Assembly (NCBI GenBank): GCA_028284265.1
Contig: JANQRZ010000014.1
Span: 1-64,000, forward strand
Origin: Rhodothermales bacterium
GTDB taxonomy: Bacteria; Bacteroidota; Rhodothermia; Rhodothermales; JANQRZ01
DNA length: 64,000 nt
Direction: 5' to 3'
Shown here: piece after piece, positions 10,792 through 28,176 of the stretch
How the letters are laid out: each line of letters opens with the position of its first letter
Numbering within the stretch: position 1 is the stretch's first letter
Position numbers and translations under genes: made by a program
Notes under the pieces: model-generated
Told to the model about the DNA's origin: nothing
What the model saw: the letters and a program-made list of their open reading frames with translations, nothing else
Databases searched by the model: none

Positions 10792-10810
10792 CGGCAATCA
10801 TACACCGGCT

Positions 10811-10931
10811 GTCATTGCGAGCGTAGCGAAGCAATCTCCTGAGGATTGCAGTCAGATCGGGAGATTGGCTGCGCCGAGCCTTCGGGTTGCCACGTCGCTA
10901 CGGGATGAGTCCCTTCGCTCCTCGCAATGAC
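10811..10931. repeat. Dispersed inverted repeat, GTCATTGCGAG family
   Basis: Ends are GTCATTGCGAGCG at 10811 and CTCGCAATGAC at 10931. The interior contains a 27-bp block (about 10873-10899) that recurs exactly, in the opposite orientation, in the copy at 46655-46780. That shared interior proves the two are copies of one element. It takes up the first part of the 438-bp gap between serS and the cytochrome operon. The rest (10932-11229) has no gene that I can see, only the upstream region of the operon. Confidence 0.8.
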
Positions 10932-11229: not shown

Positions 11230-13284
11230 ATGAAGCACGCTTTCGATAGTCTGCTGCGGCAGCGCCTTGCCACAGCCCTCCTCCTCGTATCGAGCCTTTC
11301 GGCGCTCGGCCTTGTCGGCCTGACCCTCGCTCCGGGGTCGGTCACATCAGTGCCGAGCGAGACGGCGCGCGTCCCGGCGCTCCTCGCTTCGGACGCGATG
11401 GCGGCCCGTCCGGTCTTCGCCACACGCACCATTGAGACGCGCCGCATCGCCGCGACCACGGAAGCCGAAGCACCCGTCGGCCTCTTGAAAGCGTGGCTCG
11501 ACGCCGCCGACGGGTCGGTGCGCGGGCAGGCGCTGATGCAGATGATCGCCGACTCGGCCCACACCGCGCTTTATGTGGATGGGGCCAATGATGAGGAGTC
11601 GCGCTACCCGTCGGCCAACACCTGTCAGACGTGTCACCCGGACCACTACCGCGAATGGTCGGTCTCGTCGCACGCCTATGCCCAACTCAGCCCCGTCTTC
11701 AACGCGATGCACGGGACCATCCTCAAGCAGACCAACGGCACCAACGGCGACTTCTGCATCCGCTGCCACACGCCGGTCGGGATGAACCTCAACGAACCGG
11801 AGTTCATGTCCAACATGGACCGGCACCCGACCTCGCGCGAGGGCATCACCTGCATCGTCTGCCACCGCGTCAAGAACGCCTACTCGAAGATCAGCGGGCG
11901 CTTCGCCATCGTCGAGGGCGACCTTCTCGATCCAGTCTTCGGCTCCATCGGCGACGTGGAGCTAGACCGCGTCATCAACGACCCGGCGTTCAACGTCAAC
12001 ACCGAGCGCGGGCGCGCAGGCCGGTCCATCCACACCGACGCCATCGAGTTCGAGCAGATCACCGAGTCGTCCTTCTGCGGGTCGTGCCACGACGTGAACC
12101 TCGTCAACGGCTTCCGGCTCGAAGAGGCGTTCAGCGAGTACAAGGCCACGCCTGCTGCGAAGCGCGGCGTCTCGTGCCAGGACTGCCACATGGGCAGCGT
12201 TCCCGGCGAGGATAAAGGCTACGACGAAGGCCCCGCCGCCATCGTCGGCGGCAAGGCGACGATGAACCGCAGGCGGACCAACCACCGCTTCGCCGGGCCG
12301 GACCACACGATCATCCACCCTGGCCTCTTCCCGCAGAACGTCCGCGCCAACGAAATCGCCACGATGCGCGAGTGGCTGACATTCGACGTGGACGCCGGGT
12401 GGGGTACGAATGAGTTCGAGGACAGCGTGCCCGACGGCTACCTCTTCCCCGAACGCTGGGCCACCGCCGACGACCGCTACGACGCCCGCGAGTTGATCGA
12501 CGAGAACCTCGAAGCCCTCGCCGAAATTGATGTCGAGCGCTACGCTGTCCTCCGCGCAGGGTACGTTCTCGGCGACATCGCCGTAGACCGTGCCGGACCG
12601 GACGGAATCAAGTTCCACGTCGAGGTCAAGAACGGCACCGATGGGCACAACGTCCCGACCGGCTTCGACGCCGAGCGCCTCGTCTTCCTCCAAGTCACTG
12701 TTACCGACGCCGACGGCAAGGTCGTCTACGTCTCTGGCGACCGCGACCCCAACGGCGATGTGCGCGACCTGCACTCGATCTACGTCCACAATGGCGAGCT
12801 TCCGCTGGACGAAGACCTGTTCAGCCTCCAGTCGAAGTTCCTGACGCGGATGATCCGGGGCGGCGAACGCGAGCAGGTCATCGCAGTCAACTACTCGCCC
12901 AGCCCACTCCCCTTCCTCCGACCCTCGACCCGCTCGACGGTGCTCCTCGGTCGCCCCGTTGGGGCGCGTAAGCACCGGGCGACGATTGCTCCGGGAGACA
13001 TCGAACGTCCCGAGTACCGTGTCAGCCGCCGTGAGCTAGAGGGCAGCCGCCCGCCGTACAGCGCCAACGTCAAGCTGATCGCGCAGATGGTGCCGGTCAA
13101 CCTGATCGACGAGATTCAGCACGTCGGGTTCGACTACTTCATGACACCGCGCCAAGTCGCCGACCGGGTGGTTGAAGGCGCGCTCACACTCTGGGATGTG
13201 GATGTGGCGCTCGGCGATGGTGTCCGCGTTGCCGCGACGCTGCCCGACGATGAAACGGCCTCGAACGAGGGAGGGACCCGATGA
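11230..13284 (+). CDS. Pentaheme c-type cytochrome, membrane-anchored or secreted
   Basis: 684 aa from the ATG at 11230, which opens a hydrophobic signal segment (about residues 14-35). Five CxxCH heme sites: C132 (CQTCH), C176 (CIRCH), C208 (CIVCH), C283 (CGSCH) and C316 (CQDCH). Their arrangement and the SHAYAQLSPVF and GITCIVCHRV segments recall the cytochrome c554/multiheme family. Residues after about 350 have no heme sites and form a large beta-rich domain (NGTDGHNVPTGFDAERL region) that may bind a partner or substrate. First gene of an eight-gene operon; its stop overlaps the start of the barrel gene (ATGA), which suggests the two products work together at the outer membrane. Confidence 0.88.
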   Translation: MKHAFDSLLRQRLATALLLVSSLSALGLVGLTLAPGSVTSVPSETARVPALLASDAMAARPVFATRTIETRRIAATTEAEAPVGLLKAWLDAADGSVRGQALMQMIADSAHTALYVDGANDEESRYPSANTCQTCHPDHYREWSVSSHAYAQLSPVFNAMHGTILKQTNGTNGDFCIRCHTPVGMNLNEPEFMSNMDRHPTSREGITCIVCHRVKNAYSKISGRFAIVEGDLLDPVFGSIGDVELDRVINDPAFNVNTERGRAGRSIHTDAIEFEQITESSFCGSCHDVNLVNGFRLEEAFSEYKATPAAKRGVSCQDCHMGSVPGEDKGYDEGPAAIVGGKATMNRRRTNHRFAGPDHTIIHPGLFPQNVRANEIATMREWLTFDVDAGWGTNEFEDSVPDGYLFPERWATADDRYDARELIDENLEALAEIDVERYAVLRAGYVLGDIAVDRAGPDGIKFHVEVKNGTDGHNVPTGFDAERLVFLQVTVTDADGKVVYVSGDRDPNGDVRDLHSIYVHNGELPLDEDLFSLQSKFLTRMIRGGEREQVIAVNYSPSPLPFLRPSTRSTVLLGRPVGARKHRATIAPGDIERPEYRVSRRELEGSRPPYSANVKLIAQMVPVNLIDEIQHVGFDYFMTPRQVADRVVEGALTLWDVDVALGDGVRVAATLPDDETASNEGGTR

Positions 13285-14786
13285 CTTACCGCCTCTGTTC
13301 GCTACTGCTGGTTGTCCTTCTTATCGGCCTCGCCCCCATCGCCTCGGCACAGCACGGCGAGGATGGGCACGAAGACGATGGCTATGGTGATAGTGACAGC
13401 CGCTTCTCTGACGAGCCGATCCCACTCGCCGACGTTCCCGACCGGCCCCGACCGCTCATCGAGATCGGCCCGAAGTTCCTTGGGACGGGTAACATCAACC
13501 AAGGCTTTACGCTCCCGACCGGCGCGGTGTGGACGCCTGCCTTCATGGCCTTCGGCACGCTCCGCACCGCCACGCAGGGCGCGGATAGCGGCGTCACCGA
13601 CACCCAGTTCGGCGAGTCGGTCGCACGCTTTGATCTCTTCGGCAACCTGTACCTGACGCAGACCGAGCGCATCCTCATCGGCTTCCGCCCGCTCGACCAA
13701 GACGGGCGGTTTACGAGCTACACGTTCCGCTCCCCGACTGAGTTCATCGACCCGGAGACGGGCGAGACACAGGACAACTTCCAAGAGGAGCTCAACTTCT
13801 ACATCCGCACCCTCTTCTTCGAGGGCGACCTCGCGGAGCTTTTCCCGAAACTCGACTGGGATGATAGCAGCCCACTCGACTACTACATCTCTGTCGGTCG
13901 GCAGCCGTTGAGCTTTCAGGATGGGATGCTCATCAACGAAGACGCCATCGACATGGTCGGGCTGACGCGGGCGAACATCAAGCTCGGCGGCCTTGTCAAC
14001 ACCCGCGTCGCCGCCGTATTCGGATGGGGCGATGTGAACCGCCACTCGGGGACGGGCGGTGCCTTTACGGGCTGTGCGGACCTTTTGGGTAGCCAGCTCC
14101 CTGCGGGTAACTGCGAGGATGAGTCAGCGCTCGTATTCGGCCTCCTCACTGAGTCCGACTCCCGGAAGCGAACCATCGAGATCGACGGCCTCTATGTGCT
14201 GGGAGACGAGACGACGGGCGACGGCGTCCACGGCGGCATCGGCGTGACGCAGCGCATCGGCGAGTACAACAACACCTTCCGCGTCGTCGGCTCCTACCCC
14301 GTCGGCGATGAGACACCATTCAACCGGGCAGGCGTGCTGGTCCTCAACCAGTTCGGGTTTACGCCGCACCACACCTACAACTGGGCCTACATCAACCTCT
14401 TCGGCGGCGTCGGCCAGTTCCGATCGGCAGCGCGTGGTCCGGCGACAGGTGGCCCTCTCGGGCAGGCCGGGTTGCTGTTCTCGGCGGTCGGCATCGGGCG
14501 CTTCGGCGCAGCGCTCGGCAACCAGGCAGACAAAGCGGTGGGCGGCGGCATCGGCTACCAGATGTTCTTCGGCAAGACCCGGCGGCAGCAACTGATTATC
14601 GAGGCAGGCGGACGCTACACCTATGCCGATGACGTGGTGAAGCAAGACATCGTTGGTGGCACGGCGCAGTTCTCCTTCGCGGTGGGTCGGCGCGGCACAA
14701 TCATCCTCGGTGGATTCGGGGCCTATGATCTTAATGCCAGCCAGCCTAACTTTGGGGCACGCACCGAACTGGTGATCCGACTCTAA
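13281..14786 (+). CDS. Outer-membrane beta-barrel (porin-like) of the cytochrome operon
   Basis: 501 aa. Signal peptide 1-24 ending ASAQ. The mature N-terminus is a short His/Asp/Glu-rich stretch (HGEDGHEDDGYGD) that could bind metal. The rest is alternating aromatic/polar strands with Gly turns (RFDLFGNLYLTQTERILIG, LDYYISVGRQPLSFQDG), and the C-terminal strand ends in RTELVIRL, which fits a porin-like barrel of about 16-22 strands. It has no heme motif. Placed between two multiheme cytochromes with a 4-nt overlap upstream, it is the natural candidate for the sheath of a porin-cytochrome conduit. I see no sequence likeness to MtrB-type proteins, so the role is inferred from context. Confidence 0.68.
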   Translation: MTYRLCSLLLVVLLIGLAPIASAQHGEDGHEDDGYGDSDSRFSDEPIPLADVPDRPRPLIEIGPKFLGTGNINQGFTLPTGAVWTPAFMAFGTLRTATQGADSGVTDTQFGESVARFDLFGNLYLTQTERILIGFRPLDQDGRFTSYTFRSPTEFIDPETGETQDNFQEELNFYIRTLFFEGDLAELFPKLDWDDSSPLDYYISVGRQPLSFQDGMLINEDAIDMVGLTRANIKLGGLVNTRVAAVFGWGDVNRHSGTGGAFTGCADLLGSQLPAGNCEDESALVFGLLTESDSRKRTIEIDGLYVLGDETTGDGVHGGIGVTQRIGEYNNTFRVVGSYPVGDETPFNRAGVLVLNQFGFTPHHTYNWAYINLFGGVGQFRSAARGPATGGPLGQAGLLFSAVGIGRFGAALGNQADKAVGGGIGYQMFFGKTRRQQLIIEAGGRYTYADDVVKQDIVGGTAQFSFAVGRRGTIILGGFGAYDLNASQPNFGARTELVIRL

Positions 14787-14800
14787 GACCCTTCGCCGTA

Positions 14801-16918
14801 ATGGATCAAGGCAGCGTCCCCGACCGAGCAGACCATGAGCCGCCGAGCGCGGCCCCGTCGTCTCCCCCGGTCCGCCGCCCGCCCTCCGCTGCCTGGTTCT
14901 TCGGGGCTATGCTCGGCGTCGCCCTCATCGTGCCCCTCGTGACATGGGCCTTCGCCCAGAGCGATCCGACTAACCTTTCGGACTCGCCCTACCTCCGCAT
15001 CGACCCGGCGAAGATCGTCCTTTCCGACCGCGACTCGCGCATCCCCTGCGGCGAGTGCCACAACCTCGAATATGAGGTCTGGACCGAGACCAAGCACGCG
15101 ACGGGTTTCGACGAGCTACACCGCTCGGAGCAGGCACAAGGCATTCTGGAGCGGATGGAGTTCCGCCTCTCGAAGCGCGAGAGCCTGTGCCTGAAGTGCC
15201 ACTACACAGCGAACATCAAGCGCGAGCAGGTGCAGGCGATTGCGGGCGTCTCGTGCGAGTCGTGTCACGGCGCTGCCCGAGACTGGGTGAACATCCACCA
15301 AGACTATGGTGGCGGGGACCATGAGACGGAAACTCCGGAGCACAAAGCGATGCGCGTCGCCCAGAGCATCGAAGGAGGCATGCTCCGCCCATCTTCCGAC
15401 CTCTACGCCGTCGCGGCTAACTGCTTCGAGTGCCACACGGTCCCCGAGGAAGACCTCATCAACGTCGGCGGGCACCCGAGCGGCAGCGCGTTCGACCTGA
15501 TCGAGTGGAACAGCCAGATCGCCCACAACTTCGTGCAGGCGCAGTGGGGTGGTCCCGAGGTCAATCGGGAGGTCACACAAGAGCGTAAGCGGCTGATGTT
15601 CGTCGTCGGCAAAGCGCTCGACTATGAATACAGCATCCGAGGGGCTGCGCAAGCGACGAAGGCAGACATCTACTCGAAGGCGATGGAGCGCCGCGTTAAG
15701 ACCGCCCGTCGCGACCTCGACCGGGTGCTCCGGGTCGCCGAGATTCCCGAGGTCGCCGAGATTCTGAGGATCGGGCAGAACCTCTCGATCACACCAAACA
15801 ACGAGACAGCGCTCATCGCCGCTGCCGATGCGATGAGCGCGCAGGCGCAGCAGTTCGCACAGCAGAACGACGGCTCCGAACTCGCTGCGCTCGACCCGCT
15901 CGTGGCCGGTGAGAGCGTGCCGGAGGCCGAGCCACTCGATGAAGACCCCGTCGTTGCCGGTGGTCCGGCTCCCGGCGACTCGGGTGCCGCGCTGCCTGCC
16001 GTCGATCCCGGCTCTGACCCTGTCGCGTCCGGCCCGAGTGCGCCCGCAGCTCCGACCGTGCAGGGCGAGCGACGGACACGCCCGGCATGGTTCCCTCGTC
16101 TCAACCAAGAAACCATTGCCCCCGGCGGCTGCGGCTGCCACGGCGACCAGCTCCGCTGGCACGGCGACGACGCCCACAACTTCGCTGCCGAGCCGATTCT
16201 CAACGAGAGCGGACGCGCTGTAGAGATCGCCACACTCTATGGGCTGAGTCGCTCGCAGATGAAACGCGGCAACCAACTTTGCATGAACTGCCACGGCACC
16301 GTCGTCTCGGGCGACGAGTCCGAGGAGGTCTTCGACGGCGTCGGTTGCCAGAGTTGCCACGGCCCAGCGGGCGAGTATGCCAGCAACCACCAGAGCGACG
16401 GCTATGACCAAGGGGCCCCGCTCGGCATGGTCCGGCTCGAACAGGCGTCCGCCCGCGCTCAGAACTGCGCCCGCTGCCACCACATCACCGACGAGCGCCT
16501 CCTCGCCTCCGGCCACTCCGACGGCACCTCGTTCCAACTCGCCAGCCGCAACGGGGCCATCCAGCACTGGGAAGCCCCCAACCTCAGCGCGGGCGACCTG
16601 AACAGCGCCTACGGCTCCGCTATCGCCTCGCGGCCTGTCCCGAACGTGCAGGTAGTTTCGCTGCCGAGTCCCATCGCTTCGGCGGCTCCCTCCGGTGGAA
16701 ACGCACGCACGCCCCGAGCGCCGACCGGGCGACCCGTCGCCGCACCTCCGCCGCCGCCGCGTGCTCGGCCTGTGGCCCGTAGAGCCTCGCGCTCTGCCGC
16801 ACCGAACATCGACCTGCCCCCCCTCCCCGCCGTCAGCGACAGCACGGCAACCGAGGACATCCTGCTGATTATCAAGCAGCGACTGGAACGGCTCTCCCAA
16901 GCACTCGGCGGAGGATGA
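14801..16918 (+). CDS. Multiheme cytochrome with duplicated tetraheme modules
   Basis: 705 aa. N-terminal ~30 residues are Pro/Ser-rich and cytoplasmic, followed by one membrane anchor (about 31-52). Module 1 has CxxCH at C83, C130, C152 and C208. Module 2 has a shortened C444 site (CGCH), then C494, C516 and C556. The modules share the same order and wording around sites 2-4 (for example VSCESCHGAA against VGCQSCHGPA, both 22 residues after site 2). They are joined by a Pro/Ala/Gly/Asp linker (about 355-430). The C-terminus is another Pro-rich tail. This is therefore an internal duplication of a c554-like tetraheme unit. Anchored in the inner membrane, it could carry electrons through the periplasm. 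It lies 14 nt after the barrel gene. Confidence 0.85.
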   Translation: MDQGSVPDRADHEPPSAAPSSPPVRRPPSAAWFFGAMLGVALIVPLVTWAFAQSDPTNLSDSPYLRIDPAKIVLSDRDSRIPCGECHNLEYEVWTETKHATGFDELHRSEQAQGILERMEFRLSKRESLCLKCHYTANIKREQVQAIAGVSCESCHGAARDWVNIHQDYGGGDHETETPEHKAMRVAQSIEGGMLRPSSDLYAVAANCFECHTVPEEDLINVGGHPSGSAFDLIEWNSQIAHNFVQAQWGGPEVNREVTQERKRLMFVVGKALDYEYSIRGAAQATKADIYSKAMERRVKTARRDLDRVLRVAEIPEVAEILRIGQNLSITPNNETALIAAADAMSAQAQQFAQQNDGSELAALDPLVAGESVPEAEPLDEDPVVAGGPAPGDSGAALPAVDPGSDPVASGPSAPAAPTVQGERRTRPAWFPRLNQETIAPGGCGCHGDQLRWHGDDAHNFAAEPILNESGRAVEIATLYGLSRSQMKRGNQLCMNCHGTVVSGDESEEVFDGVGCQSCHGPAGEYASNHQSDGYDQGAPLGMVRLEQASARAQNCARCHHITDERLLASGHSDGTSFQLASRNGAIQHWEAPNLSAGDLNSAYGSAIASRPVPNVQVVSLPSPIASAAPSGGNARTPRAPTGRPVAAPPPPPRARPVARRASRSAAPNIDLPPLPAVSDSTATEDILLIIKQRLERLSQALGGG

Positions 16919-16919
16919 G

Positions 16920-18572
16920 ATGAGCATGGGTCCACACAGCGGCACAGCCGAACAACGGGTGCAACTCTACGAGGACCGCTGGTCGTCCTATGGCGACTCG
17001 ACCGGTCTCGCCGATCTCTCCGAACGCCCGACTGCAAAAACACTCAAGGCGTTCGACCTCTTCAAAGAGTTCGATGACGAGGTACTGGAGACGCTCTCGC
17101 AGGATATCTCAGTGGCGAAGTGGGAAGCCGGAGCCATCCTCTTCGAGGAGGGCAGCTACCTCGACCTCGCGTTCTACATCGTCGAAGGGTCGGTCAGCCT
17201 CTTCCTGCAAAAGCACGCGGATGCCCCGCCGCAACCTATCTATACGACGCGGATGGTGACTACCCCGGAGGGTGGCGGGGGGGCAACGAAGATGTACGAC
17301 AAGACGGTCTTCGAGGAACAGATCGAGGCGCAGAAAGAGCATCAAGCGAAGGATGCGACGAAGATGACGATGCTCGCGTCGATGGACTTCGACCTGAGCA
17401 AAGGCGAGGAGCGGACGCTCGGTTCGGGTGAGATTTTCGGCGAGATCGGAGCGCTCAACGGGTGGCCGCAGTCGGTGACGGCGCGAACGGCGTCGGACTG
17501 TACGCTCGTACAGATTCGGTTGCCTGCGCTGCAACAACTCAAGCGCAAGTCGAAGGACTTCAAGGCGTGGACCGACCGGCTCTACCGCGAGCGCTCGCTG
17601 TGGCAGCAACTCAAGACCACCCCGCTCTTCGCGGGTGCCGATGACGCCTTCCTCTCCGACCTGACGCAGAAAGTCGAACTGGTCTCGTGCTCACCGGGCG
17701 AGGTGGTAGCGCAGGAAGGTGAAGCTACGGACGCGCTCTACCTCGTCCGCTCCGGCTTCCTCAAAGTCTCGCAGCGCCTCGCCGACGAGGACGTGGCGAT
17801 GACCTACCTCAGCAAAGGGATGACCTTTGGCGAGGCCGAGTTGCTCATGGATGGCCTCGATGCGTGGCAGTTCACCCTTACCTCGGTCGGCTATACCGAA
17901 CTCGTCCGCGTTGAACGAAGCGACTTCGCCCGCCTCGTTCAACGCCACCCTGCTGTCGAGCGTCACCTGTGGGAAGCGGCCGTCGCCCGGATCAAAGAGA
18001 CCGGCGCGACGAGGCAGCGACCGGAGAAGACCGACCTGATCGAGTTCTCACTCGAAAAGGGGCTCGTCCAGGGCAACAGCATCTTGGTCATGGACCTTGA
18101 CGTGTGTACGCGCTGCGACGACTGCGTGCGAGGCTGCGCGAGCACCCACGGCGGGCGGCCCCGGTTCGTCCGCGAGGGCGACCGCTACGACAACTTCCTC
18201 ATCGCCCGAAGCTGCTACCACTGCGAAGACCCCGTCTGCCTGATCGGCTGCCCGACGGGCGCGATCCGACGAGCCAATGTCGGCGAGGTCGTGGAGGTAG
18301 ACGACAGCCTCTGCATCGGGTGCAGCAACTGCGCCAACAAGTGCCCCTACGACGCCATCGTGATGCACGAGACGGGCGAGACATGGCCGGACACGGCGCT
18401 CCCCGAGTGGCTCCGCGGCAAAGACCGCAAGGTGGCAAGCAAGTGCGACCTCTGCCACACGTCAGACGAAGGTCCGGCGTGTGTAACGAGCTGCCCGCAC
18501 TCGTGCGCCTTCCGCATCAGCACGCTCGACGAGTTCCAACAGCTTCAGGCCATCAGCGGGGCGCAGCGATGA
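16920..18572 (+). CDS. Double cNMP-binding-like domain fused to a four-cluster ferredoxin (DmsB/NrfC type)
   Basis: 550 aa, cytoplasmic, no signal peptide. Residues about 44-200 and 232-350 have the cyclic-nucleotide-binding fold (FGEIGAL at 173, FGEAELL at 303). Both phosphate-binding cassettes lack the Arg that holds the cyclic phosphate (PQSVTA at 183-188; DAWQFT near 314-319), and the first domain carries an insert of about 70 residues. Residues 390-530 hold sixteen Cys in four [4Fe-4S] groups: C396/399/402/406, C432/435/440/444, C465/468/471/475 and C509/512/521/525. This is the electron-transfer subunit pattern of DmsB/PsrB/NrfC. GGAGG stands just before the ATG at 16920. It overlaps the cytochrome b gene by ATGA, which suggests direct electron transfer to or from it. 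Confidence 0.87.
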   Translation: MSMGPHSGTAEQRVQLYEDRWSSYGDSTGLADLSERPTAKTLKAFDLFKEFDDEVLETLSQDISVAKWEAGAILFEEGSYLDLAFYIVEGSVSLFLQKHADAPPQPIYTTRMVTTPEGGGGATKMYDKTVFEEQIEAQKEHQAKDATKMTMLASMDFDLSKGEERTLGSGEIFGEIGALNGWPQSVTARTASDCTLVQIRLPALQQLKRKSKDFKAWTDRLYRERSLWQQLKTTPLFAGADDAFLSDLTQKVELVSCSPGEVVAQEGEATDALYLVRSGFLKVSQRLADEDVAMTYLSKGMTFGEAELLMDGLDAWQFTLTSVGYTELVRVERSDFARLVQRHPAVERHLWEAAVARIKETGATRQRPEKTDLIEFSLEKGLVQGNSILVMDLDVCTRCDDCVRGCASTHGGRPRFVREGDRYDNFLIARSCYHCEDPVCLIGCPTGAIRRANVGEVVEVDDSLCIGCSNCANKCPYDAIVMHETGETWPDTALPEWLRGKDRKVASKCDLCHTSDEGPACVTSCPHSCAFRISTLDEFQQLQAISGAQR

Positions 18573-19492
18573 AACCGACCGTCCCCAAGAAAGCCTACCG
18601 ACCGAGAGCGTCTCGCGCTGCCGCAAGCGGCGTGCTGAAAACGGCAGGCCAGACAACCAAGCGCTCTGGTGCGACCCGGTGGGCCAATACGTGGGTGCAG
18701 TCACCCAACTGGTTCTTCGGGTTCTGGATTGTGGTGGCGCTGTGTCTCGTGATCTACACGCTCAATGCGCTATTCGGTCAGGTCCATCCGGGGAGCGCGT
18801 GGGGCCTGAGCTACGGTATCGCAGCGACCATCCTGTTCGTGGCGGTCTTCCTGTACGCGCTCCGGCGGCGGCTGATGAAGGTGCGTGCGCTCGGGCGCTC
18901 ATGGGTCTATCTCCAAGTCCATGTCTACGGGGGCGCGCTCTTCCTCCTACTCGTGTTCATGCACACCGGCTTCCAGTGGCCGCAGGGCGTGCTGACGTGG
19001 TGGCTCTGGGCACTGAGCATCTGGGTCGTCGGCAGCGGCCTGCTCGGGATCGTCCTCCAAAAGTGGCTCCCGACGCTCCTCAGCAGCGGCCTCACCACCG
19101 AGGTTCACTACGACCGCATCCCCGACCTCGTCAGCGAGATTCGTCGCCGCGCCGAGGCGCTCGTCGAAGACGCGGACTACGCGATTCGGACTTTTTATCG
19201 GGATGACCTTGCCCCCTCCCTCACCGGGCCGGAGACGCACCTCGCCTACTACCTCGGAGCCTCTGACGTGAACGGGCGCAGCCGACAGTTCGACGCGCTC
19301 GGCGCGATGCTTCCAGCGGAGGAGCGCGCCAAACTGTCGGAGCTTCGAGAGATGGTCCAGACGAAGCAGGAGATCGACGCGCACTACACGCTCCAGAAAG
19401 CGCTGCGCGGGTGGCTCCTGCTGCACGTCCCAGTCTCGGTCGTGCTCATCGTGCTTCTCGGATTCCACATCTTCTCGGTCTGGTACTGGTAA
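18569..19492 (+). CDS. Diheme b-type membrane cytochrome
   Basis: 307 aa. Five hydrophobic segments at about 48-70, 81-98, 112-133, 141-164 and 280-303. Two His pairs, H118/H132 and H286/H300, are each spaced 14 residues within membrane segments, the spacing of bis-His b-heme ligands (as in cytochrome b and b561-type proteins). A cytoplasmic or periplasmic loop of about 110 charged residues (170-280) separates helix 4 from helix 5. The start ATG overlaps the upstream ferredoxin stop and its own stop overlaps the next ATG (TAATG), so it is coupled to both. Likely role: quinone-linked electron passage between the four-cluster ferredoxin and the decaheme cytochrome. Quinone binding is inferred. 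Confidence 0.8.
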   Translation: MKPTVPKKAYRPRASRAAASGVLKTAGQTTKRSGATRWANTWVQSPNWFFGFWIVVALCLVIYTLNALFGQVHPGSAWGLSYGIAATILFVAVFLYALRRRLMKVRALGRSWVYLQVHVYGGALFLLLVFMHTGFQWPQGVLTWWLWALSIWVVGSGLLGIVLQKWLPTLLSSGLTTEVHYDRIPDLVSEIRRRAEALVEDADYAIRTFYRDDLAPSLTGPETHLAYYLGASDVNGRSRQFDALGAMLPAEERAKLSELREMVQTKQEIDAHYTLQKALRGWLLLHVPVSVVLIVLLGFHIFSVWYW

Positions 19493-21048
19493 TGGCGGCT
19501 AAACCGAAACGCAAAGGATTTTTCAGCCGACTCCGCCTGCCGGTAGCGAAAGAGTACGTCTACCCATCGTCGCGCACAGGAATGTTCCTCGTCGGCGGTG
19601 TCGGGGCAGCGCTCGTGCTCGGGCTGTTCGCGTTCAACGCCTTCGTTCAGGAAGGGGCGCTCGTCTCAAACGGGCCGCTGTCCTCGAACCACGCGAGTTT
19701 CGGCGGCGACTGCCAAGCGTGCCACACGCCATTCCAAGCCGTCACCGATGACAAGTGCTCCGTCTGCCATGAGAAATACGGCGATGAGATCGGCGTCCAC
19801 ACCTTCGAGTCGCACTACCTCTACCGCTCGGCGGACTTCACGCGCGTCGTCCCCCAACCTAATGAGCCTGCATGCTTCAACTGCCACAACGAGCACGTCG
19901 GGCGCGACGCGCCGATCACCGAGGTCGCCGACGCGCTCTGCCTCCAGTGCCATGAGTACGGCTCGTTTAACGACGGGCACCCGGAGTTCCAAGCCGTCGC
20001 CGACAGCCTCGAAGACCCGAACCTAAAATTTCCCCACACGCTCCACGTCAACGAAGTCAGCGACCGCGAGGACTTGGTCGATATCGAACAGGCATGCCTC
20101 TACTGTCACAACGCCGACGACGAGGGCAAAAACTTCCAGCCGATCTCGTTCGACCAGCACTGCGACACCTGCCACCTGACGACAAGCGTGGCGACGCCCT
20201 GGATTCCGGTGGCCTCGGGCAATACGGTCGGCGTGCTGACACTCGAATCGCTCCGGTCGGACGGGCGGCCCGGTTCGCTGTGGACCTATTACACCAACCC
20301 GGGTGAGTTCCAGAATCGGGGCGAGACCGTCCGCAAGACGCCGGTCTATCACCAGGACCGATGGGTGATCGCCAACCTTCAGCGCCTCCGCCGCCTCCTC
20401 TATCCCTCAACAGGCCTCGCTGACCTCCTTCTCGCCTCGGGCGATGTGGACACCCGCGAAGCACGAGCGCTCTACGACGAAGCCCTAGCCACCCTTCGCA
20501 CCTACGCCGAGGAACTCAGAAGCTCCCCCGAGCGCACGGTGCAGCGCGAGCTATCCCAAGTCGAGGACTTGCTCGCCGTCGTGGAGCGACGACTACGCGA
20601 CCCCTATGCCCCACTCGACGAGACCAAGTTCGCCGTCTCTCTCGCCGAGCGCGACACGTCGCTGACCGACGACGAGGTGGACGTGTACGAGAGCGTAGTG
20701 GCCCAACTCACGCAGCCGTGCCAGCAGTGCCACTACGTCGAGAACGCTACCATTGTCCGGGCCAAGGCCGACCAGCGCACCCTCATCCGCGCCGAGTTCG
20801 ACCACAGCGCCCACATCACGACCACGCGCTGCCTCGACTGCCACAACGCCATCCCGATCCGCGAGTTCAACGCGACCGAATCGACGCCGCCCCCAGCTCA
20901 GGACCACGCGGGCATCCAGAATCTCCCCTCCATCGAGTCCTGCTTCACCTGCCACGACAACGGCAAGGCCGCGAACACCTGCGTGACGTGCCACCTCTTC
21001 CACCCCGACAAGTCGCAGCATTCCAACCTGCTGCTATATCTGGAATGA
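19492..21048 (+). CDS. Membrane-anchored decaheme c-type cytochrome
   Basis: 518 aa. Basic N-terminus, then one membrane anchor (about 30-50), so the hemes face the periplasm. Ten CxxCH sites at C74, C89, C128, C150, C202, C224, C410, C447, C484 and C497. The first six and the last four are separated by a helical, heme-free linker (about 235-405). Extra His residues (H103, H108, H182, H185, H441 and others) are available as distal ligands. The first cluster reads like a cytochrome c3/NapC-NrfH-type region. The start overlaps the previous stop (TAATG). It is the likely electron carrier between the b-type protein and the other cytochromes. Confidence 0.87.
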   Translation: MAAKPKRKGFFSRLRLPVAKEYVYPSSRTGMFLVGGVGAALVLGLFAFNAFVQEGALVSNGPLSSNHASFGGDCQACHTPFQAVTDDKCSVCHEKYGDEIGVHTFESHYLYRSADFTRVVPQPNEPACFNCHNEHVGRDAPITEVADALCLQCHEYGSFNDGHPEFQAVADSLEDPNLKFPHTLHVNEVSDREDLVDIEQACLYCHNADDEGKNFQPISFDQHCDTCHLTTSVATPWIPVASGNTVGVLTLESLRSDGRPGSLWTYYTNPGEFQNRGETVRKTPVYHQDRWVIANLQRLRRLLYPSTGLADLLLASGDVDTREARALYDEALATLRTYAEELRSSPERTVQRELSQVEDLLAVVERRLRDPYAPLDETKFAVSLAERDTSLTDDEVDVYESVVAQLTQPCQQCHYVENATIVRAKADQRTLIRAEFDHSAHITTTRCLDCHNAIPIREFNATESTPPPAQDHAGIQNLPSIESCFTCHDNGKAANTCVTCHLFHPDKSQHSNLLLYLE

Positions 21049-21087
21049 GAGTTGTTTTTTGCCCTCTGCCTTCTGCTCTCTGAACCC

Positions 21088-21930
21088 ATGCCAGCACGCC
21101 TTTTTTGCAAGACGGGAGAGTTCGCCGGAGCCTCGTTCGAGATCGGCACGGAGACGACGATTGGACGCGGGCCGGACGGTGGGGCGAGTATTCCATCAGA
21201 GGTCGTCTCGGGTCGGCACGCCCGGATTTTTTTCGATGAGAGCGAAGGCAGCTATTTCCTCGAAGACCTTGGCAGTAGCAATGGAACAAAGCTCGATGGA
21301 CTCACGGTCAATGCCCCCGTTAAGCTCGGCGCGCTCCACGTCGTTACTCTCGCCGACCGAATCGACTTGATCTATCACGCTGTGGAACGATCCGCGGCGG
21401 CCCCTGCAACCCTGAAAGCCGAGGTGGGCAAGACCGAGTTTGCGCCGGTGCCCGTGATTGACCTTCCACCGGAGCAGGAGGATGAGGCGAGAAGAACACG
21501 CATCGCTGCCTCCCCTTTCATTGGCCTGCCGCCTGAGCCAGAGGCTGCGGGACGTGAGACACAGCCAGAAGACATTCACCCACCCGCCCCTTCCGATCCG
21601 GGACCTCTAGAGGCACCCACGATTGTCGAACCGCCGCGCTTCGCACTCGACATCGCCCGACTGGATGATAACCCCAAGACCTTTCTTCTCATTGAAGGCG
21701 AGAATACCGTCGGGCGCTCGCCGGAATGCACCATCATGGTCGACGCTCAGTCGGTCTCTCGGCAGCACGCCGTACTGACCGTTCGCGGTGGACGCATCAC
21801 GGTACGCGACTTCGGAAGCCGCAACAAGACGTTCCTTAACGGGAATCCCGTGGACGCCGAGACAGAAATCCAACCCGGTGCATCTCTCCGGTTTGGGATC
21901 GACATCGAAGCCACACTCCGCCGCGCCTGA
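21088..21930 (+). CDS. Double FHA-domain protein
   Basis: 280 aa, no signal peptide. FHA 1 (about 12-95) has the canonical phosphothreonine-binding residues: GR (TIGRGP), SGRH and SSNGT. FHA 2 (about 200-280) has GR (VGRSPE), SRQH and RNKT, keeping Ser, Arg and Asn but with Lys for the Gly of NGT. The middle is Pro/Glu-rich and disordered. The start at 21088 is chosen because the FHA homology begins directly after it; an in-frame ATG at 21052 would add 12 residues. A pyrimidine tract (CCTCTGCCTTCTGC, about 21063-21076) stands just upstream. It probably brings phosphorylated partners to the electron-transfer complex. No Ser/Thr kinase lies in the window. Confidence 0.85.
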   Translation: MPARLFCKTGEFAGASFEIGTETTIGRGPDGGASIPSEVVSGRHARIFFDESEGSYFLEDLGSSNGTKLDGLTVNAPVKLGALHVVTLADRIDLIYHAVERSAAAPATLKAEVGKTEFAPVPVIDLPPEQEDEARRTRIAASPFIGLPPEPEAAGRETQPEDIHPPAPSDPGPLEAPTIVEPPRFALDIARLDDNPKTFLLIEGENTVGRSPECTIMVDAQSVSRQHAVLTVRGGRITVRDFGSRNKTFLNGNPVDAETEIQPGASLRFGIDIEATLRRA

Positions 21931-21949
21931 CTTATTACCACCCGCCGCC

Positions 21950-24295
21950 ATGCCTTCCTCGGAGATGACCAACGGACACACCGACCTGCCCGATGTGCTG
22001 GACCTCCTCATCGTCGGCGGCGGACCGGCAGGGACGGCGGCGGCGTTCCGCGCCCGCGAACTCGGCCTGAGCGCGCTCGTCATCGACTACGATGACTTGA
22101 TGAAGCGCATCCGCGACTACGCCAAAGACAAGCAGATTCTCCCTCACTTCGGCGGCGGCGACAAGATGCAGTTCCCGCAAGGCGGCGACCTTGTGGCAGA
22201 CCTCCACTTCAGCCCCATCGACAAGGACGACATGTGCGCCGAGTGGAAGGGGCTATACAAGCAGCATGACATTCCCGCTCAGACCGGCGTCGAGTTGACC
22301 GGATTGGAGGCAGGCGAAGACGGCGTGTGGGATGTCAAGACGTGGAATCATCGAGCGAAGGCAGAGCAGACATTCCGTGCCCGCCACGTCGCCCTCGCCA
22401 TCGGTCGCGGTGTCCCGCGTCGGTTTGATATTCCCGGCTCCACTGACGGCATCGCCTACAAGCTTGACGACGCGACGCAGTACGTTGGGCACCCTGTCTG
22501 CGTAATCGGCGGCGGAACGTCGGCAGCCGAAGCCGTCATTGCCCTCTCCGAAGCCAAGGCTGAGGCCGGTGATGAGTGCGCCGTCTATTGGTCGTATCGC
22601 GGCGACAAGTTGCCGAAAGTCTCCAAGGCCCTCGCCGACGCGTTCTTCAATGCCTACATCGGCAACGGCAACATCCGCTACCAGCCCGGCTCCGAGCCTG
22701 TCGCTGTCGTGACCACGCCAGAGAAAAAAGAACACCTCTCGATTCGCGTGGACCGCAAGACGCCCGCCGGGCGGCCCAACGAAACGATCCACCTAGAGTT
22801 TGAGAAGACGCGCTGCGTGGCGTGCATCGGCGAGGACATTCCCGAGGCGCTACTCAACTCGCTCGGCATCTACCTCGTGACCGGCGGACCGAGCGACAAG
22901 AAGCGCATGGTGGTAACGCCACTGCTGGAGACGCAGCAGCCCAACGTCTACCTCATCGGCGACCTCTTGAGCCAGGCTTATCTCGAAACCGATGACTTCG
23001 GAGGCGCCCCGTCGACGTTCCGCGAGATCAAGCACCGGGGCAACATCAAGTCGGCCCTGCGCGATGGTGTCTTCGTGGCCGAAGTCGTCAAACAGAAAAT
23101 CGAAGGGCGCGAGGTGATCGAGGTCAACCTTGACTTTACCGACGGCCCGGCAGAGCCGAAAGAGCAGACCGCGTTAGAGCTAGCGCCACCGCCTACCATC
23201 GCAACAGCGGAGGGGCCGCCAGAAGAGACTATCGCACCGGAGCGCTCGGTCGAAGCTACAGGCAGATTCCTTGTTCGCATCACGGCAGGCGGGATCGAAG
23301 AAGATGAGTTCGCTTTGGAGACAGACGGCACCACAACAATTGGCCGCAGCGAATGCACGATCTCTTTCCCCGAGGATACTACCCTCTCCTCGCCCCATGC
23401 CTCCGTCGTCCACGGACCAGATGGCTACCTCCTACGCGACAATGGAAGCACGACCGGGACGTTCCTCCAGCTTCGCCCTGGCTCGTCCTATACCGTCAAA
23501 GACGGCGATCTGCTCCGCCTCGGCCAGCGCTTCCTCCGGTTCCATGTAGAGGGCGGCACCCACGCCTTTACCCACTACGACGCGACCGGCCAAGTCGTCC
23601 AGCAACAATCCGTCACCGAGGGCACCATCGTCCTCGGACGCGAGGCTCCCGACGTCACGCTCGACGAGCAGGACATGGTGCTCTCGCGTCGCCACATCTC
23701 ACTATCGCTCAAAGACGGTGTACTCCGCGTCAAAGACCTGAAGAGCCTCAACGGAACCTACCTCCGTGTCCGCGATGCTATCGCGCTCGAGAGCGACGAC
23801 CAGTTCCGTGTAGGCCAGCAACTCTTCCGACTGAACGCCAAGGAGGAGGTCACGAAATCCGGCAGCACGACATTCCGGCTCACACCCTACAAGCCAGAAA
23901 ACGCTACTGAGGAAATACTGGCCGTTACGTCTGCGCCGTCTGCCGAATTAGAGACATCACCTGCCGAGGCTCCAGCATCTTCTGCGGAGCACGAGGCTCC
24001 CTCCGTGACGTTCAAAGGAGACGGCACAACCATTCCTGTGAAGCCGGGCCAGACGCTATGCGACGCCGCCGAGGCACACGGCATCGAGCTTCAAGCGGAG
24101 TGCCATGCAGGCATCTGCGGCAGCGACCCCATTCGCATCGTCTCCGGCGGCGAATACCTCGACGTACCGGGCGATGAGGAAGCGGGAACTCTCGAAGACA
24201 TCTGCGACCTCGAAGCAGGCAATGCACCCGGCCGGTGCCGCCTCGCGTGTATGGTTCGCACCACCGGCCCCGTTGTCGTCGAGCGTGTCGGTTAA
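21950..24295 (+). CDS. Flavoprotein reductase fused to two FHA domains and a [2Fe-2S] ferredoxin
   Basis: 781 aa in one chain. Residues about 15-385: two-Rossmann pyridine-nucleotide/FAD reductase with GGGPAG at 23-28, a second GGGTSAAEA near 187 and a YLIGDLL FAD motif. It resembles YpdA/thioredoxin-reductase folds but has no CxxC active site. About 435-530: FHA with degenerate residues (SSPH, TTGT). About 540-640: canonical FHA (LGRE, SRRH, LNGT). About 685-781: plant-type ferredoxin with C718 and C723, but Asp 726 where the third Cys should be, and C752, C763 and C767 further on. Probably moves electrons from NAD(P)H to the ferredoxin domain and on to the operon's iron-sulfur or heme proteins. 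The ATG at 21950 is preferred; ATG 21965 is also possible. Last gene of the operon. Confidence 0.85.
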   Translation: MPSSEMTNGHTDLPDVLDLLIVGGGPAGTAAAFRARELGLSALVIDYDDLMKRIRDYAKDKQILPHFGGGDKMQFPQGGDLVADLHFSPIDKDDMCAEWKGLYKQHDIPAQTGVELTGLEAGEDGVWDVKTWNHRAKAEQTFRARHVALAIGRGVPRRFDIPGSTDGIAYKLDDATQYVGHPVCVIGGGTSAAEAVIALSEAKAEAGDECAVYWSYRGDKLPKVSKALADAFFNAYIGNGNIRYQPGSEPVAVVTTPEKKEHLSIRVDRKTPAGRPNETIHLEFEKTRCVACIGEDIPEALLNSLGIYLVTGGPSDKKRMVVTPLLETQQPNVYLIGDLLSQAYLETDDFGGAPSTFREIKHRGNIKSALRDGVFVAEVVKQKIEGREVIEVNLDFTDGPAEPKEQTALELAPPPTIATAEGPPEETIAPERSVEATGRFLVRITAGGIEEDEFALETDGTTTIGRSECTISFPEDTTLSSPHASVVHGPDGYLLRDNGSTTGTFLQLRPGSSYTVKDGDLLRLGQRFLRFHVEGGTHAFTHYDATGQVVQQQSVTEGTIVLGREAPDVTLDEQDMVLSRRHISLSLKDGVLRVKDLKSLNGTYLRVRDAIALESDDQFRVGQQLFRLNAKEEVTKSGSTTFRLTPYKPENATEEILAVTSAPSAELETSPAEAPASSAEHEAPSVTFKGDGTTIPVKPGQTLCDAAEAHGIELQAECHAGICGSDPIRIVSGGEYLDVPGDEEAGTLEDICDLEAGNAPGRCRLACMVRTTGPVVVERVG

Positions 24296-24300
24296 CAACG

Positions 24301-24329
24301 ACGAGGGGCGACCAAGTGTCGCCCCTCGT
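24301..24329. terminator. Terminator hairpin after the cytochrome operon and mscL
   Basis: Perfect 12-bp stem ACGAGGGGCGAC / GTCGCCCCTCGT with the 5-nt loop CAAGT, directly after the stop at 24295 and 27 bp before the convergent mscL stop. There is no long T tract, but the symmetrical stem can act in both directions. Confidence 0.75.
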
Positions 24330-24355
24330 TATGTGCAGCGCTATCTAGGCAGCAC

Positions 24356-24998: not shown

Positions 24999-25074
24999 TG
25001 GAGTCCGAAACTTGGACCAGTCCGAGTCCCGCGTCGGGACCCGGTGTATCTCTCGAAGCCGTCCTCATGCCCGC

Positions 25075-26547
25075 ATGAACCGTCGTCGATTTCTCTCGCT
25101 CGCCCCGGCACCCGCTGAAGCGCCTGTCGCTGCCACACCTCCTCCTGTCGCTGGAGGTCTCGAACCGTTTGTGCCGTCCGCATCCGCACCGTGGGACGAG
25201 CGCCGGGCTGCCCACCTGATCCGCCGCCTCTCCTTTGGCGTCGCCGTGCCAGACTTGAACGAGGCGCTCTTCCGCAGTCCGTCGGATGCCGTCGCGTTCT
25301 TCGTCCAGCAGGCCCTCAGCCGGCCGCTCCCCGACACACCGTCGTGGTACGATTCCCACCCGAGCGGTAACGAGAATATCGACTGGCTCTACGAATGGCA
25401 GGAAGGCTGGTATGCCGAGATGCGGGCAGGCGGTCTGCGCGAGAAGATGACGCTCTTCTGGCACGACCACTTCGCCACCGAATCGAACGTCTACGGTCTC
25501 GCGCCCTACGCCTATCAGTACATCACCCACCTACGCACCCACGCGCTCGGCAACTTCCGCACGCTCCTAGAAGGCGTCGGCAAGCTTCCGGCGATGCTGA
25601 TCTACCTCGACGGGCGCTCGAACGTGGTCGGCAATCCGAACGAGAACTACGCCCGCGAACTGTGTGAGCTGTTCACGATGGGCATCGGCCACTACTCGCA
25701 GGAAGATGTGGCCGAACTCGCCCGTGCCCTCACGGGCTGGCGCATCAATGAGTCGGCGCTTTCATCCTACTTCGACGCCGCGCAACACGACGACGGTAAC
25801 AAGACCATCTTCGGGCAGACGGGTCGATGGGACTATGACGACGTGCTCGACCTCATCTTCGCGCACCGCTCGCTCCAGACGGCGCGTCGCCTCTGCCGCA
25901 AGCTCTATGAGTGGTTCGTCTATGGCATCCCGAATGAGACCATCGTCAACCAGCTTGCCAGTCACCTGATTTCCAACGGCTGGAATCTCGCGCCGACGGT
26001 CCAACTCCTGCTCTCCAGCGCCCACTTCTTCGACGACGCTTTCATCGGGGCGCGGATCAAAGACCCGAGCGAGTTCCTCGTCGGTCTCGTCCGCGAGTTC
26101 GGGATTCAGCCTTCGAGCCAAGTCTGGTCTTCCTTCCGCGAGTTGGGCTTCGCCCTCGGCCAAGAGCTACTGAACCCGCCGAACGTCGCGGGCTGGACGG
26201 GCTACCGGACGTGGATTACGACCGGCACTGTCCCCGAGCGACAGATCGTCACGGCCCGCGCTCTCTTCGGCGGCGGCGCCTTCGACGAGTACGACCCACT
26301 CCCGCTGCTCGACCAGATCACCGACTCGACCAACGTCTACTCCATCGCGGACGACCTCCCGGCCTTCCTCTTCCCGACCGCTGACTTCAGCGACGAGGAG
26401 CGCGACTACCACATCGAGCTGCTGCTCGTCGGCGCGCCCTACTACGAGTGGCCGTACCTGCTTCAGAGCACGCCGGAGACAGCGCGTGAGCGTCTGCGGA
26501 CCCTGCTCAACCATCTCGTCTCGCTCCCTGAGTTCCAACTGACCTAA
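25075..26547 (+). CDS. DUF1800 family protein
   Basis: 490 aa from ATG 25075, which opens an MNRRRFLSLAP twin-arginine-like start. An AHLIRRLSFG motif follows, then GLREKMTLFWHDHF and NPNENYARELCELFTMG, which are the hallmark blocks of DUF1800. Biochemical activity of the family is unknown. DUF1800 genes are commonly followed by DUF1501 genes, as here (3-nt gap), and the pair is thought to act outside the cytoplasm. First gene of a four-gene operon ending at the 30276 terminator. Confidence 0.88.
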   Translation: MNRRRFLSLAPAPAEAPVAATPPPVAGGLEPFVPSASAPWDERRAAHLIRRLSFGVAVPDLNEALFRSPSDAVAFFVQQALSRPLPDTPSWYDSHPSGNENIDWLYEWQEGWYAEMRAGGLREKMTLFWHDHFATESNVYGLAPYAYQYITHLRTHALGNFRTLLEGVGKLPAMLIYLDGRSNVVGNPNENYARELCELFTMGIGHYSQEDVAELARALTGWRINESALSSYFDAAQHDDGNKTIFGQTGRWDYDDVLDLIFAHRSLQTARRLCRKLYEWFVYGIPNETIVNQLASHLISNGWNLAPTVQLLLSSAHFFDDAFIGARIKDPSEFLVGLVREFGIQPSSQVWSSFRELGFALGQELLNPPNVAGWTGYRTWITTGTVPERQIVTARALFGGGAFDEYDPLPLLDQITDSTNVYSIADDLPAFLFPTADFSDEERDYHIELLLVGAPYYEWPYLLQSTPETARERLRTLLNHLVSLPEFQLT

Positions 26548-26550
26548 GCT

Positions 26551-28176
26551 ATGTGCGATCATCACCACGCGCCCCCGAGCGCTGAGGAGCGAGCCATTGC
26601 CCTCGAACACGGACAAGCTCACGACCGCGACCACGCGGCGTGGAGCCGCCGTGACTTCCTGACCCGGACGAGCGTTGCCGCCGGTGCTGCCCCGTTCTTG
26701 CTTGGCGGACGGCAGGTGCAAGCCTTCGGGCACTCGCCGCTCTTGCAGCGCCTCGCTCGGCTTACTGGCGGACGCTCGCTCGTGATCGTCCAGATGGCGG
26801 GCGGCAACGATGGGTTGAACATGATCGTCCCCGTCACGAACGACCGCTACTACCAGGTCCGCCCGACGATTGCGATCCAGGGTAACCAGACCGTCTCGCT
26901 CGACGCCGACACGGGGATGCACCCGGCGATGGGAAGCCTAGAGTCAATGTGGGGCGACGGCGAGATGGCTGTCATCCAGACGGTCGGCTATCCGTCGCAC
27001 AACCTCTCGCACTTCCGCTCAACGGACATCTGGGCCTCGGGTAGCGGCTCCGATGACATGGTTCGCAGCGGATGGACCGGGCGCTACTTCGACCAGCAAT
27101 TCCCCAACTACGCCTTCGATCCGCCGGACTACCCTGTCGCCATCCGCATCGGCGGGGCGACCTCCACCCTTATGCGTGGGGGCGACCTTACGATGGGCAT
27201 GAGCCTGTCGAATGCTCGGCAGCTTGCCGATCTCGCTGAGGATGGCGTGATCTACGACGAGGCTGCCGTGCCTCCGGGTGCCCACGGCGATGAGTTGAGC
27301 TTCATCCGCTCCATTTTCAATGCCTCATTCCGCTACCGCGACTCGGTGGTGGCAGCAGCCGAGACCGGCACGAACCGCGTCGAGTATCCGGCGGGGCAGT
27401 TTGCTGAAACGCTGGCGGTGATCGCCCGGCTCATCAAGGGCAACCTCGGAGCGCGGCTCTATGTCCTCCAGATCGGCGGCTTCGACACGCACTCGAACCA
27501 GTTGGCGCGTCAGGGCCAAATCCTCGGCCAGCTTGCCGATGGCATGAGCGCTTTCTACGCTGACCTCGCAGCCGACAGCGCTGCCAACGACGTGCTCACG
27601 ATGACGTTCTCCGAGTTCGGGCGGCGCGTCGAGCAGAACGGCTCCGCCGGAACCGACCACGGCACGGCAGCCCCGATGATGCTCTTCGGCGGCGGCATCA
27701 ACGGCGGATTCTATGGCGACGCGCCCGACCTGCTCGACCTCGATAACGCAGGCAACATGCGGCATTCGGTCGATTTCCGGCAAGTCTACGCGACGCTCCT
27801 CTCCCACTGGTTTGGCCTGACAGCAAACGAGGCGGCGCAGGTTCTCTTCGACGACTTCGAGACGCTTCCCTTCGTGGCAAACCCTGTCTCCACAAGTGAC
27901 GCACCGGCCACGCCTGACTTCGTTATCGATGGCAATTATCCCAATCCATTCACAGCCCGCACCACAATCCGCTTCCGCCTCGCCGAGGCGGGGCCAATGC
28001 GGCTCCGCGTGCTCGACGTGCAAGGCCGCACGGTGCGCACCCTCGCCGACGGCAACCACGCCGCCGGTTCGCACGCCATCCCGTTCGACGCCCGCGACCT
28101 CCCGAGTGGAACCTATTTCTATCACCTCGACACCCGGCGCGGCTCGCAAAGCCGACCGATGACGCTCGTTCGCTAA
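26551..28176 (+). CDS. DUF1501 protein with Tat signal and T9SS sorting domain
   Basis: 541 aa. The His-rich start is followed by a twin-arginine motif (SRRDFLTRTSVAAGAAPFLLG, residues about 31 on; longest run given is the motif region), a Tat signal. LVIVQMAGGNDGLNMIVPV then opens the DUF1501 (sulfatase/alkaline-phosphatase-like) core, and GGFDTHSNQ and DHGTAAPMMLFGGG are metal-site-like blocks. The last ~80 residues (NYPNPFTARTTIRF, LRVLDVQGR, LPSGTYFYH) form a type-A T9SS C-terminal domain. So the protein is probably folded in the cytoplasm, exported by Tat and then moved to the surface or medium by T9SS. Paired with the DUF1800 gene. Confidence 0.9.
   Translation: MCDHHHAPPSAEERAIALEHGQAHDRDHAAWSRRDFLTRTSVAAGAAPFLLGGRQVQAFGHSPLLQRLARLTGGRSLVIVQMAGGNDGLNMIVPVTNDRYYQVRPTIAIQGNQTVSLDADTGMHPAMGSLESMWGDGEMAVIQTVGYPSHNLSHFRSTDIWASGSGSDDMVRSGWTGRYFDQQFPNYAFDPPDYPVAIRIGGATSTLMRGGDLTMGMSLSNARQLADLAEDGVIYDEAAVPPGAHGDELSFIRSIFNASFRYRDSVVAAAETGTNRVEYPAGQFAETLAVIARLIKGNLGARLYVLQIGGFDTHSNQLARQGQILGQLADGMSAFYADLAADSAANDVLTMTFSEFGRRVEQNGSAGTDHGTAAPMMLFGGGINGGFYGDAPDLLDLDNAGNMRHSVDFRQVYATLLSHWFGLTANEAAQVLFDDFETLPFVANPVSTSDAPATPDFVIDGNYPNPFTARTTIRFRLAEAGPMRLRVLDVQGRTVRTLADGNHAAGSHAIPFDARDLPSGTYFYHLDTRRGSQSRPMTLVR

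Follow-up and report, generated by a model that had tools for sequence, protein, structure and literature searches.

The eight genes in positions 11,230-24,295 of the analyzed stretch of DNA (64,000 nucleotides from a Rhodothermales bacterium, hereinafter the window) very probably encode, judging from the sequences of their products, an electron-carrying protein wire that links intracellular NAD(P)H and the cell surface. The products, denoted P1 to P8 in the order of the genes (Table 1), appear to form a single trans-envelope wire with a cytoplasmic entry and probably a phosphorylation switch of its own, and NAD(P)H-fed extracellular electron transfer, gated by recognition of phosphothreonine by FHA domains, is the function that we consider rather probable. 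To our knowledge, the known routes of extracellular electron transfer are mainly quinol-fed and are mainly controlled at the level of gene expression. The cluster described here, which is conserved in several phyla and mostly in uncultured bacteria, combines in one gene set an NAD(P)H reductase of its own with what appears to be a kinase-FHA switch. What sets it apart from known systems is the predicted combination of an FHA- and kinase-linked, NAD(P)H-fed inner module with an exchangeable outer conduit. If this interpretation is correct, the export or uptake of electrons would be under post-translational on/off control, and P5 and P8 would be marker genes for such organisms in metagenomes.

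Organization of the operon

All eight open reading frames of the operon outlined in an earlier note on this DNA are found on the forward strand between 11230 and 24295. The successive junctions from P1 to P8 measure -4, +14, +1, -4, -1, +39 and +19 bases, so that no gap exceeds the 39 bp given in that note; the distances fit a single transcript. Adjacent genes overlap at three junctions (by 4 nt at two, and in the TAATG manner at one), not at four as counted before. The strong terminator placed at 24301 is partly borne out: the hairpin 3' of the P8 stop is real (-28.5 kcal/mol, z -4.8) but lacks a U tract and is absent from the list produced by an intrinsic-terminator scan. Pfam and other HMM scans recover the domain content described previously, namely, cytochromes, cNMP-like and Fe-S domains, FHA domains and a flavoprotein-ferredoxin. 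Hydropathy analysis identifies one N-terminal membrane segment in each of P1, P2, P3 and P6, five in P5, and none in P4, P7 and P8.

Table 1. Genes of the predicted operon and the hairpin that follows it (coordinates in the window)
Feature	Predicted product or role	Coordinates	Strand	Characteristic features
P1	Secreted C554-like cytochrome c with five hemes and a non-heme domain at the C-terminus; type A conduit	11230..13284	+	5 CXXCH, PF13435 E 9.5e-10
P2	Putative outer-membrane beta-barrel (porin)	13281..14786	+	Signal segment 1-26; ~18 strands in low-confidence model; family always adjoining P1
P3	Membrane-anchored or secreted cytochrome, two tetraheme-like modules	14801..16918	+	7 CXXCH + 1 CXCH; PF13435 in two stretches
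P4	Cytoplasmic electron-transfer protein, two degenerate cNMP-like domains and four [4Fe-4S] sites (HycB/DmsB-like)	16920..18572	+	PF00027 x2, PF13247
P5	Five-TM diheme-b-like inner-membrane protein (PCC3/PCC4-type IMP)	18569..19492	+	HX13H twice, SGxxG
P6	Inner-membrane-anchored periplasmic decaheme cytochrome, conserved cytoplasmic tail	19492..21048	+	10 CXXCH, PF14522/PF14537
P7	Two FHA domains joined by a linker that contains repeated [KR]T motifs	21088..21930	+	PF00498 x2
P8	NAD(P)H flavoprotein (YpdA/FNR-like FAD domain) - FHA - FHA - [2Fe-2S] ferredoxin	21950..24295	+	PF07992, PF00498 x2, PF00111
Hairpin	13-bp hairpin, likely transcription end, between P8 and a convergent mscL-like gene	24299..24331	+	

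Two features of the flanking DNA can be mentioned. An imperfect palindrome (TGTCATTGCGAGCGTAGCGAAGCAATC...CTCGCAATGACA), present in a single copy in the window, occupies the intergenic positions 10809-10931, with a seryl-tRNA synthetase-like gene on one side and the operon on the other. Past the mscL-like gene, at 25012-28176, there are two large open reading frames that by eye resemble a DUF1800/DUF1501 pair.

Conservation of the cluster and two types of outer conduit

A close homolog of P5 (E < 1e-100) is present in 7 of the 114 genomes of the order and the P2 barrel in 9 of the 114. The barrel is encoded in all seven P5-containing genomes (hypergeometric 9e-10) and adjoins P1 in 9 of 9; in the two additional barrel genomes, the contigs end inside P4. 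Throughout the 114 genomes, the barrel is never found apart from the cytochromes, as expected of the single linked conduit proposed in the earlier note, which had named separate occurrence as the observation that would count against it; a plain nutrient porin is thereby ruled out. The distribution of the cluster is patchy: it is missing in the other genome of the same genus, and close P5 homologs are detected in only two genomes of a 148-genome sample of the phylum and in 2 of 249 genomes of the phylum to which the Gemmatimonadetes locus L039 belongs.

A search of 84,980 species genomes with P4 as the query identifies 14 clear relatives, which are 51-72% identical and come from Rhodothermia, Ignavibacteria/Chlorobi, Bacteroidetes, Gemmatimonadetes, Zixibacteria, KSB1, Calditrichia and Acidobacteria. 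The core P4-P5-P6-(P7)-P8 is found in this order in Rhodothermia, Ignavibacteria/Chlorobi, Calditrichia, Gemmatimonadota and Zixibacteria, and the order P3-P4-P5-P6-P7-P8 is common to the loci on sufficiently long contigs. The exceptions are the KSB1 locus L036, in which a fusion joins P4 to P5 and no P7/P8 is found within 21 kb, and the loci L041 (Acidobacteria) and L130, where P8 directly follows P6 and P7 is not found. The comparison of gene order suggested in the earlier note reveals a recurrence across phyla that is far beyond chance.

The outer part of the cluster comes in two forms. Type A, pentaheme cytochrome-barrel-7/8-heme cytochrome, is represented by the window locus and by L030, L034, L035, L038, L039, L130 and L150-L152 (for L150, 10 hemes are read in a longer open reading frame). 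Type B, found in L033, L036, L037 and L040 and, cut by contig ends, in L031 and L032, consists of an HbpS-like protein, a larger barrel, a 1225-aa LVIVD decaheme cytochrome and a triheme cytochrome. In the tree of P4+P5+P6, type B is a single clade (UFBoot 100) located beside the type A locus of Calditrichia, which would agree with the outer part having been replaced once. Exchange of the outer part (P1-P2-P3 versus HbpS-barrel-LVIVD decaheme-triheme), with the inner part kept, is what would be expected of a module that feeds conduits.

Several observations concern type B itself. The 1225-aa, 10-heme, LVIVD-repeat cytochrome that adjoins the HbpS-like protein and the barrel (L037:5260-8937 and relatives) shows 50-76% identity among Chlorobi, Ignavibacteriae, Zixibacteria, KSB1 and Sphingobium. 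Large plasmids of Sphingobium (L026, L027, hits H3-H14) carry a divergent type B conduit with a metallophosphoesterase gene after the P6 homolog, and a P6-like cytochrome is present in 12 plasmid records. In the plasmid version, the flavoprotein, the cNMP-like domains and the ferredoxin are fused in one chain, and the P6 homolog has an FHA-like domain at the N-terminus (recognized by eye, not by HMM).

Predicted outer conduit: P1, P2 and P3

All five heme sites of P1 are of the CXXCH form and are conserved in 7 homologs; the heme counts of P1 (5) and P6 (10) are constant among the homologs. Neither P2 nor five homologs match any Pfam family at E 1, and the predicted structure of P2 has approximately 18 strands at low confidence (pLDDT 51.5). 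Taken together, the signal peptide, the lack of a Pfam match and this low-confidence model point to a putative outer-membrane barrel. A barrel of 18 strands, if that is indeed the number, would be narrow for a heme wire, which counts against the conduit interpretation. It is more readily compatible with the barrel being a channel for a soluble substrate, with P1/P3 acting on that substrate as a periplasmic reductase or oxidase without electron export, and the C554-type modules of P1 are shared with multiheme enzymes as well. Nevertheless, this alternative seems quite improbable: all five P1 sites are CXXCH, and type B retains the inner module and a barrel but has, in place of P1, the LVIVD decaheme cytochrome with its different architecture, so that a conduit fits better than one enzyme.

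P3 consists of two C554-like modules. The first heme site of the second module (residue 444, window positions ~16130-16143) varies among the homologs: it is CXCH in the window, L028, L029, L034 and L038, CXXCH in L030, L035, L039 and L130, and CX6CH in the type B loci. The sequences are compatible with a possible non-standard heme attachment site at this position.

Predicted inner module: P4, P5 and P6

P4 contains 16 cysteine residues, sufficient for four [4Fe-4S] clusters, and matches PF13247 with 34.5 bits (cut-off 26.2). Its first cNMP-like domain has the cassette FGEIG(A/T)..GWPQ, and the cassette of the second domain likewise lacks arginine, in 14 of 14 homologs. Because the phosphate-binding arginine of the cassette is missing in all homologs, the sensing of cNMP by canonical binding, implied in the earlier note, is rejected.

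P5 was previously described as a diheme cytochrome b, and the five hydrophobic segments and the two HX13H pairs agree with this assignment, although there is no significant Pfam match; comparisons with PF01794, PF01292 and PF14358 yield only weak similarity. The histidine pairs, H118/H132 and H286/H300, map to the predicted TM3 and TM5, and all four residues as well as the 13-residue spacing are invariant. In addition, S156-G157-G160 form an SGxxG motif, and W282 precedes H286 and H300; the corresponding tryptophan of TM3 is tyrosine in P5 but tryptophan in several homologs. The AF2 model of P5 is usable (five helices, pLDDT 79.8). A Foldseek search started with this model finds no significant match, and VIA-align gives weak matches to cytochrome b6 and STEAP that are below the level trusted for helical bundles (4h0l, Z 9.1, rmsd 4.2, 129 aligned; 6hcy, Z 8.4, rmsd 4.7, 145 aligned). 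P6 has a conserved N-terminal tail ahead of its TM segment.

FHA proteins and neighboring kinases

The phosphothreonine-binding residues (GR/GK, SxxH, NGT) are retained in most homologs in FHA1 of P7 and FHA2 of P8; FHA1 of P8 is partly degenerate. The glycine motifs for FAD and NAD(P) in P8 are conserved. The linker of P7 contains repeated [KRQE]T-x-hydrophobic motifs, 31 in 12 homologs compared to 5.8 in shuffled sequences (0/2000), for a pattern that was defined post hoc from the inspected sequences. In L152, the linker carries near-identical tandem copies of this threonine motif, and the motifs are present also in P7 of the window and of the family relative L150, which have no neighboring kinase gene.

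A Ser/Thr kinase gene adjoins the cluster in eight loci: 3' of P8 in L031, L033, L037 and L152, 3' of P6 in L036, between P6 and P7 in L038, and divergently upstream of P1 in L030 and L151 (the kinases of L151 and L152 are called by the HRDxKP motif only). Given a background of 3-34 kinases per genome, adjacency in 6 of 9 genomes has a chance probability of ~5e-11 under independence, a value weakened by shared ancestry; in G055, where the 4.2 Mb contain only three kinases, one of the three lies at the cluster. A kinase motif scan detects none in the window, and none adjoins the cluster in L150, L039 and L130; the 21 kb of L036 contain a kinase but neither P7 nor P8. The source genome has 20 kinase matches. 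The signal-linked character ascribed to the FHA part in the earlier note thus gains from the kinase genes beside eight related loci, and the recurrence in several phyla of cluster-linked FHA proteins, often with a kinase, suggests a wire switched by phosphorylation.

Alternatively, the conduit may operate as proposed while the FHA and cNMP-like domains are mere structural scaffolds and the kinase neighbors are incidental. The degeneracy of the cNMP-like domains in all homologs and, in part, of FHA1 of P8, along with the lack of a kinase beside the window cluster, is in line with this possibility, but the retention of the phosphothreonine-binding residues in the other two FHA domains and the occurrence of kinases in several different positions around the cluster, far above the independence expectation, make it appear unlikely. 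The literature search found nothing that joins an FHA domain with extracellular electron transfer, or a protein kinase and an FHA domain with multiheme proteins.

The ferredoxin (Fer2) domain of P8 (window positions ~24040-24260) is unusual in that CX4C is followed by aspartate at the expected third cysteine (CHAGICGSD). In L039 and L130, the sequence is CGCD instead and the EDIC cysteine is lost, suggesting swapped cluster ligands.

Comparison with known systems

As in MtrCAB/MtoAB, a barrel and multiheme cytochromes would, in principle, take electrons through the outer membrane. Unlike in those systems, P2 does not match PF11854 (MtrB/PioB), and quinol entry via CymA/CbcL-type proteins is replaced by P8-P4-P5. 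The best score against the DmsE/MtrA-family decaheme model (TIGR03508) is 27.2 bits, for P1, with a cut-off of 192. Thus, membership in the Mtr group is ruled out.

In NOX, STEAP/ferric reductase and MsrQ-type systems, a cytoplasmic NAD(P)H flavoprotein feeds a membrane protein with b hemes; the present operon differs in having an Fe-S relay between flavin and heme and a chain of multiheme c acceptors. Switches composed of FHA domains and Ser/Thr kinases include OdhI/GarA and the PpkA-Fha pathway of T6SS. The cluster shares with these the FHA domains, nearby candidate phosphothreonine sites and a neighboring kinase; unlike in them, FHA is attached to a respiratory electron conduit.

The layout resembles that of PCC4, in which a porin is accompanied by three cytochromes that bear 4, 5 and 10 hemes, along with other redox genes (He et al. 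2017, PMC5566968). The signature described there for the inner-membrane proteins of PCC3/PCC4 consists of five TMs, SGXXG on TM4 and a (W-X3-)H-X13-H motif on each of TM3 and TM5, and in subgroup II a PF13247 Fe-S gene lies upstream of the IMP gene (PMC5566968). P5 has the same five TMs, SGXXG and two HX13H pairs, P1 is pentaheme and P6 decaheme, and the PF13247 gene P4 is directly upstream of P5, as in subgroup II. By contrast, the 4-heme cytochrome is replaced by the doubled module of P3; the FHA-FHA protein, the FHA-bearing flavoprotein and the cNMP-like domains are not mentioned in the main text of PMC5566968; and the hosts (Rhodothermia, Gemmatimonadota, Calditrichia etc.) are unlike those in the PCC4 report. 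The operon is accordingly called PCC4-like, not a member of PCC4, the likeness being one of description (layout, motifs, heme counts) alone. A search for PCC4 reference loci via plasmids returned only the Sphingobium type B relatives and unrelated cytochromes of Shinella/Nitratiruptor.

In a 2026 karst survey, decaheme-porin clusters are reported to have a ferredoxin-NADP reductase gene in the vicinity, and the Group 1 clusters combine a large decaheme cytochrome with a ~20-strand porin and, often, this reductase gene (PMC13264449). Group 1 probably corresponds to type B, in which an LVIVD decaheme cytochrome and a barrel likewise have a flavoprotein nearby. The window locus, being of type A, is unlike Group 1, for which the section consulted of PMC13264449 describes no FHA or kinase components. 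Thus, the combination that the earlier note did not recognize is partly known, given that the layout matches PCC4 (PMC5566968) and that decaheme-porin clusters with a ferredoxin-NADP reductase are reported in PMC13264449, whereas the phospho-signaling side was not found described in these sources. Isolate OFTM72 of the Oslofjord tunnel study, in which iron-reductase genes were noted for the KSB1 genomes (PMC10732223), is the source of the KSB1 locus L036.

Proposed mechanism and direction of electron flow

The localization of the proteins is predicted, and we propose the following path. Electrons would pass from NAD(P)H to FAD and the [2Fe-2S] cluster of P8 and on to the four [4Fe-4S] clusters of P4, then cross the inner membrane through the two b hemes in P5 to reach the ten hemes of P6, and continue via P3 in the periplasm to P1, in or at the barrel P2, and to an outside acceptor. 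The phosphothreonines recognized by the FHA domains of P7 and P8 would most likely be those of the repeated [KR]T motifs in the linker of P7, phosphorylated by a Ser/Thr kinase, and their recognition would dock or release the P8 reductase; in the source genome, the kinase would act in trans. In its fullest form, the proposal is tentative: a phosphothreonine-gated, NAD(P)H-wired extracellular conduit in which the kinase would phosphorylate the threonine motifs of P7, the FHA domains of P7/P8 would dock the flavoprotein on P4-P5-P6, electrons would exit bypassing the quinone pool, and the inner module would be a general adaptor paired with at least two outer conduits.

The wire could also run inward. 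In this case, an external donor such as Fe(II), Mn(II) or a cathode would be oxidized at the surface, and P1-P3-P6-P5 would deliver the electrons to the quinone pool or, with P4-P8 as the further route, to NAD(P)+. PCC4-like clusters are found in Fe(II) oxidizers, and an inward direction has been proposed for PCC4 (PMC5566968). The source genome encodes two COX1 homologs, so that it could respire oxygen, in line with the inward direction. Outward flow via P5 would be driven by the membrane potential and would dissipate it, which makes energy conservation doubtful and counts against export. The cytochrome c assembly family of the source genome, together with the two COX1 homologs and the lack of RuBisCO, agrees with the main proposal. 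However, no RuBisCO, the sole carbon-fixation route looked for, is detected in the source genome, and flow to NAD(P)H would be uphill and would need reverse electron transport. The lack of RuBisCO and the exergonic step from NAD(P)H make the outward direction appear somewhat favored, and the inward wire is a possibility that we view as doubtful. If the proposed reading of the cluster is correct, the question of direction in PCC4-like clusters would become testable through P8 and P4.

A second, porin-less type of cluster, present in the source genome and in other phyla, contains a P5-like cytochrome b, large multiheme cytochromes and an FAD protein (L024, G000:C2:277001-288088; L023, L025, L131, L132 and L135); in L023, the FAD protein includes 4Fe-4S.
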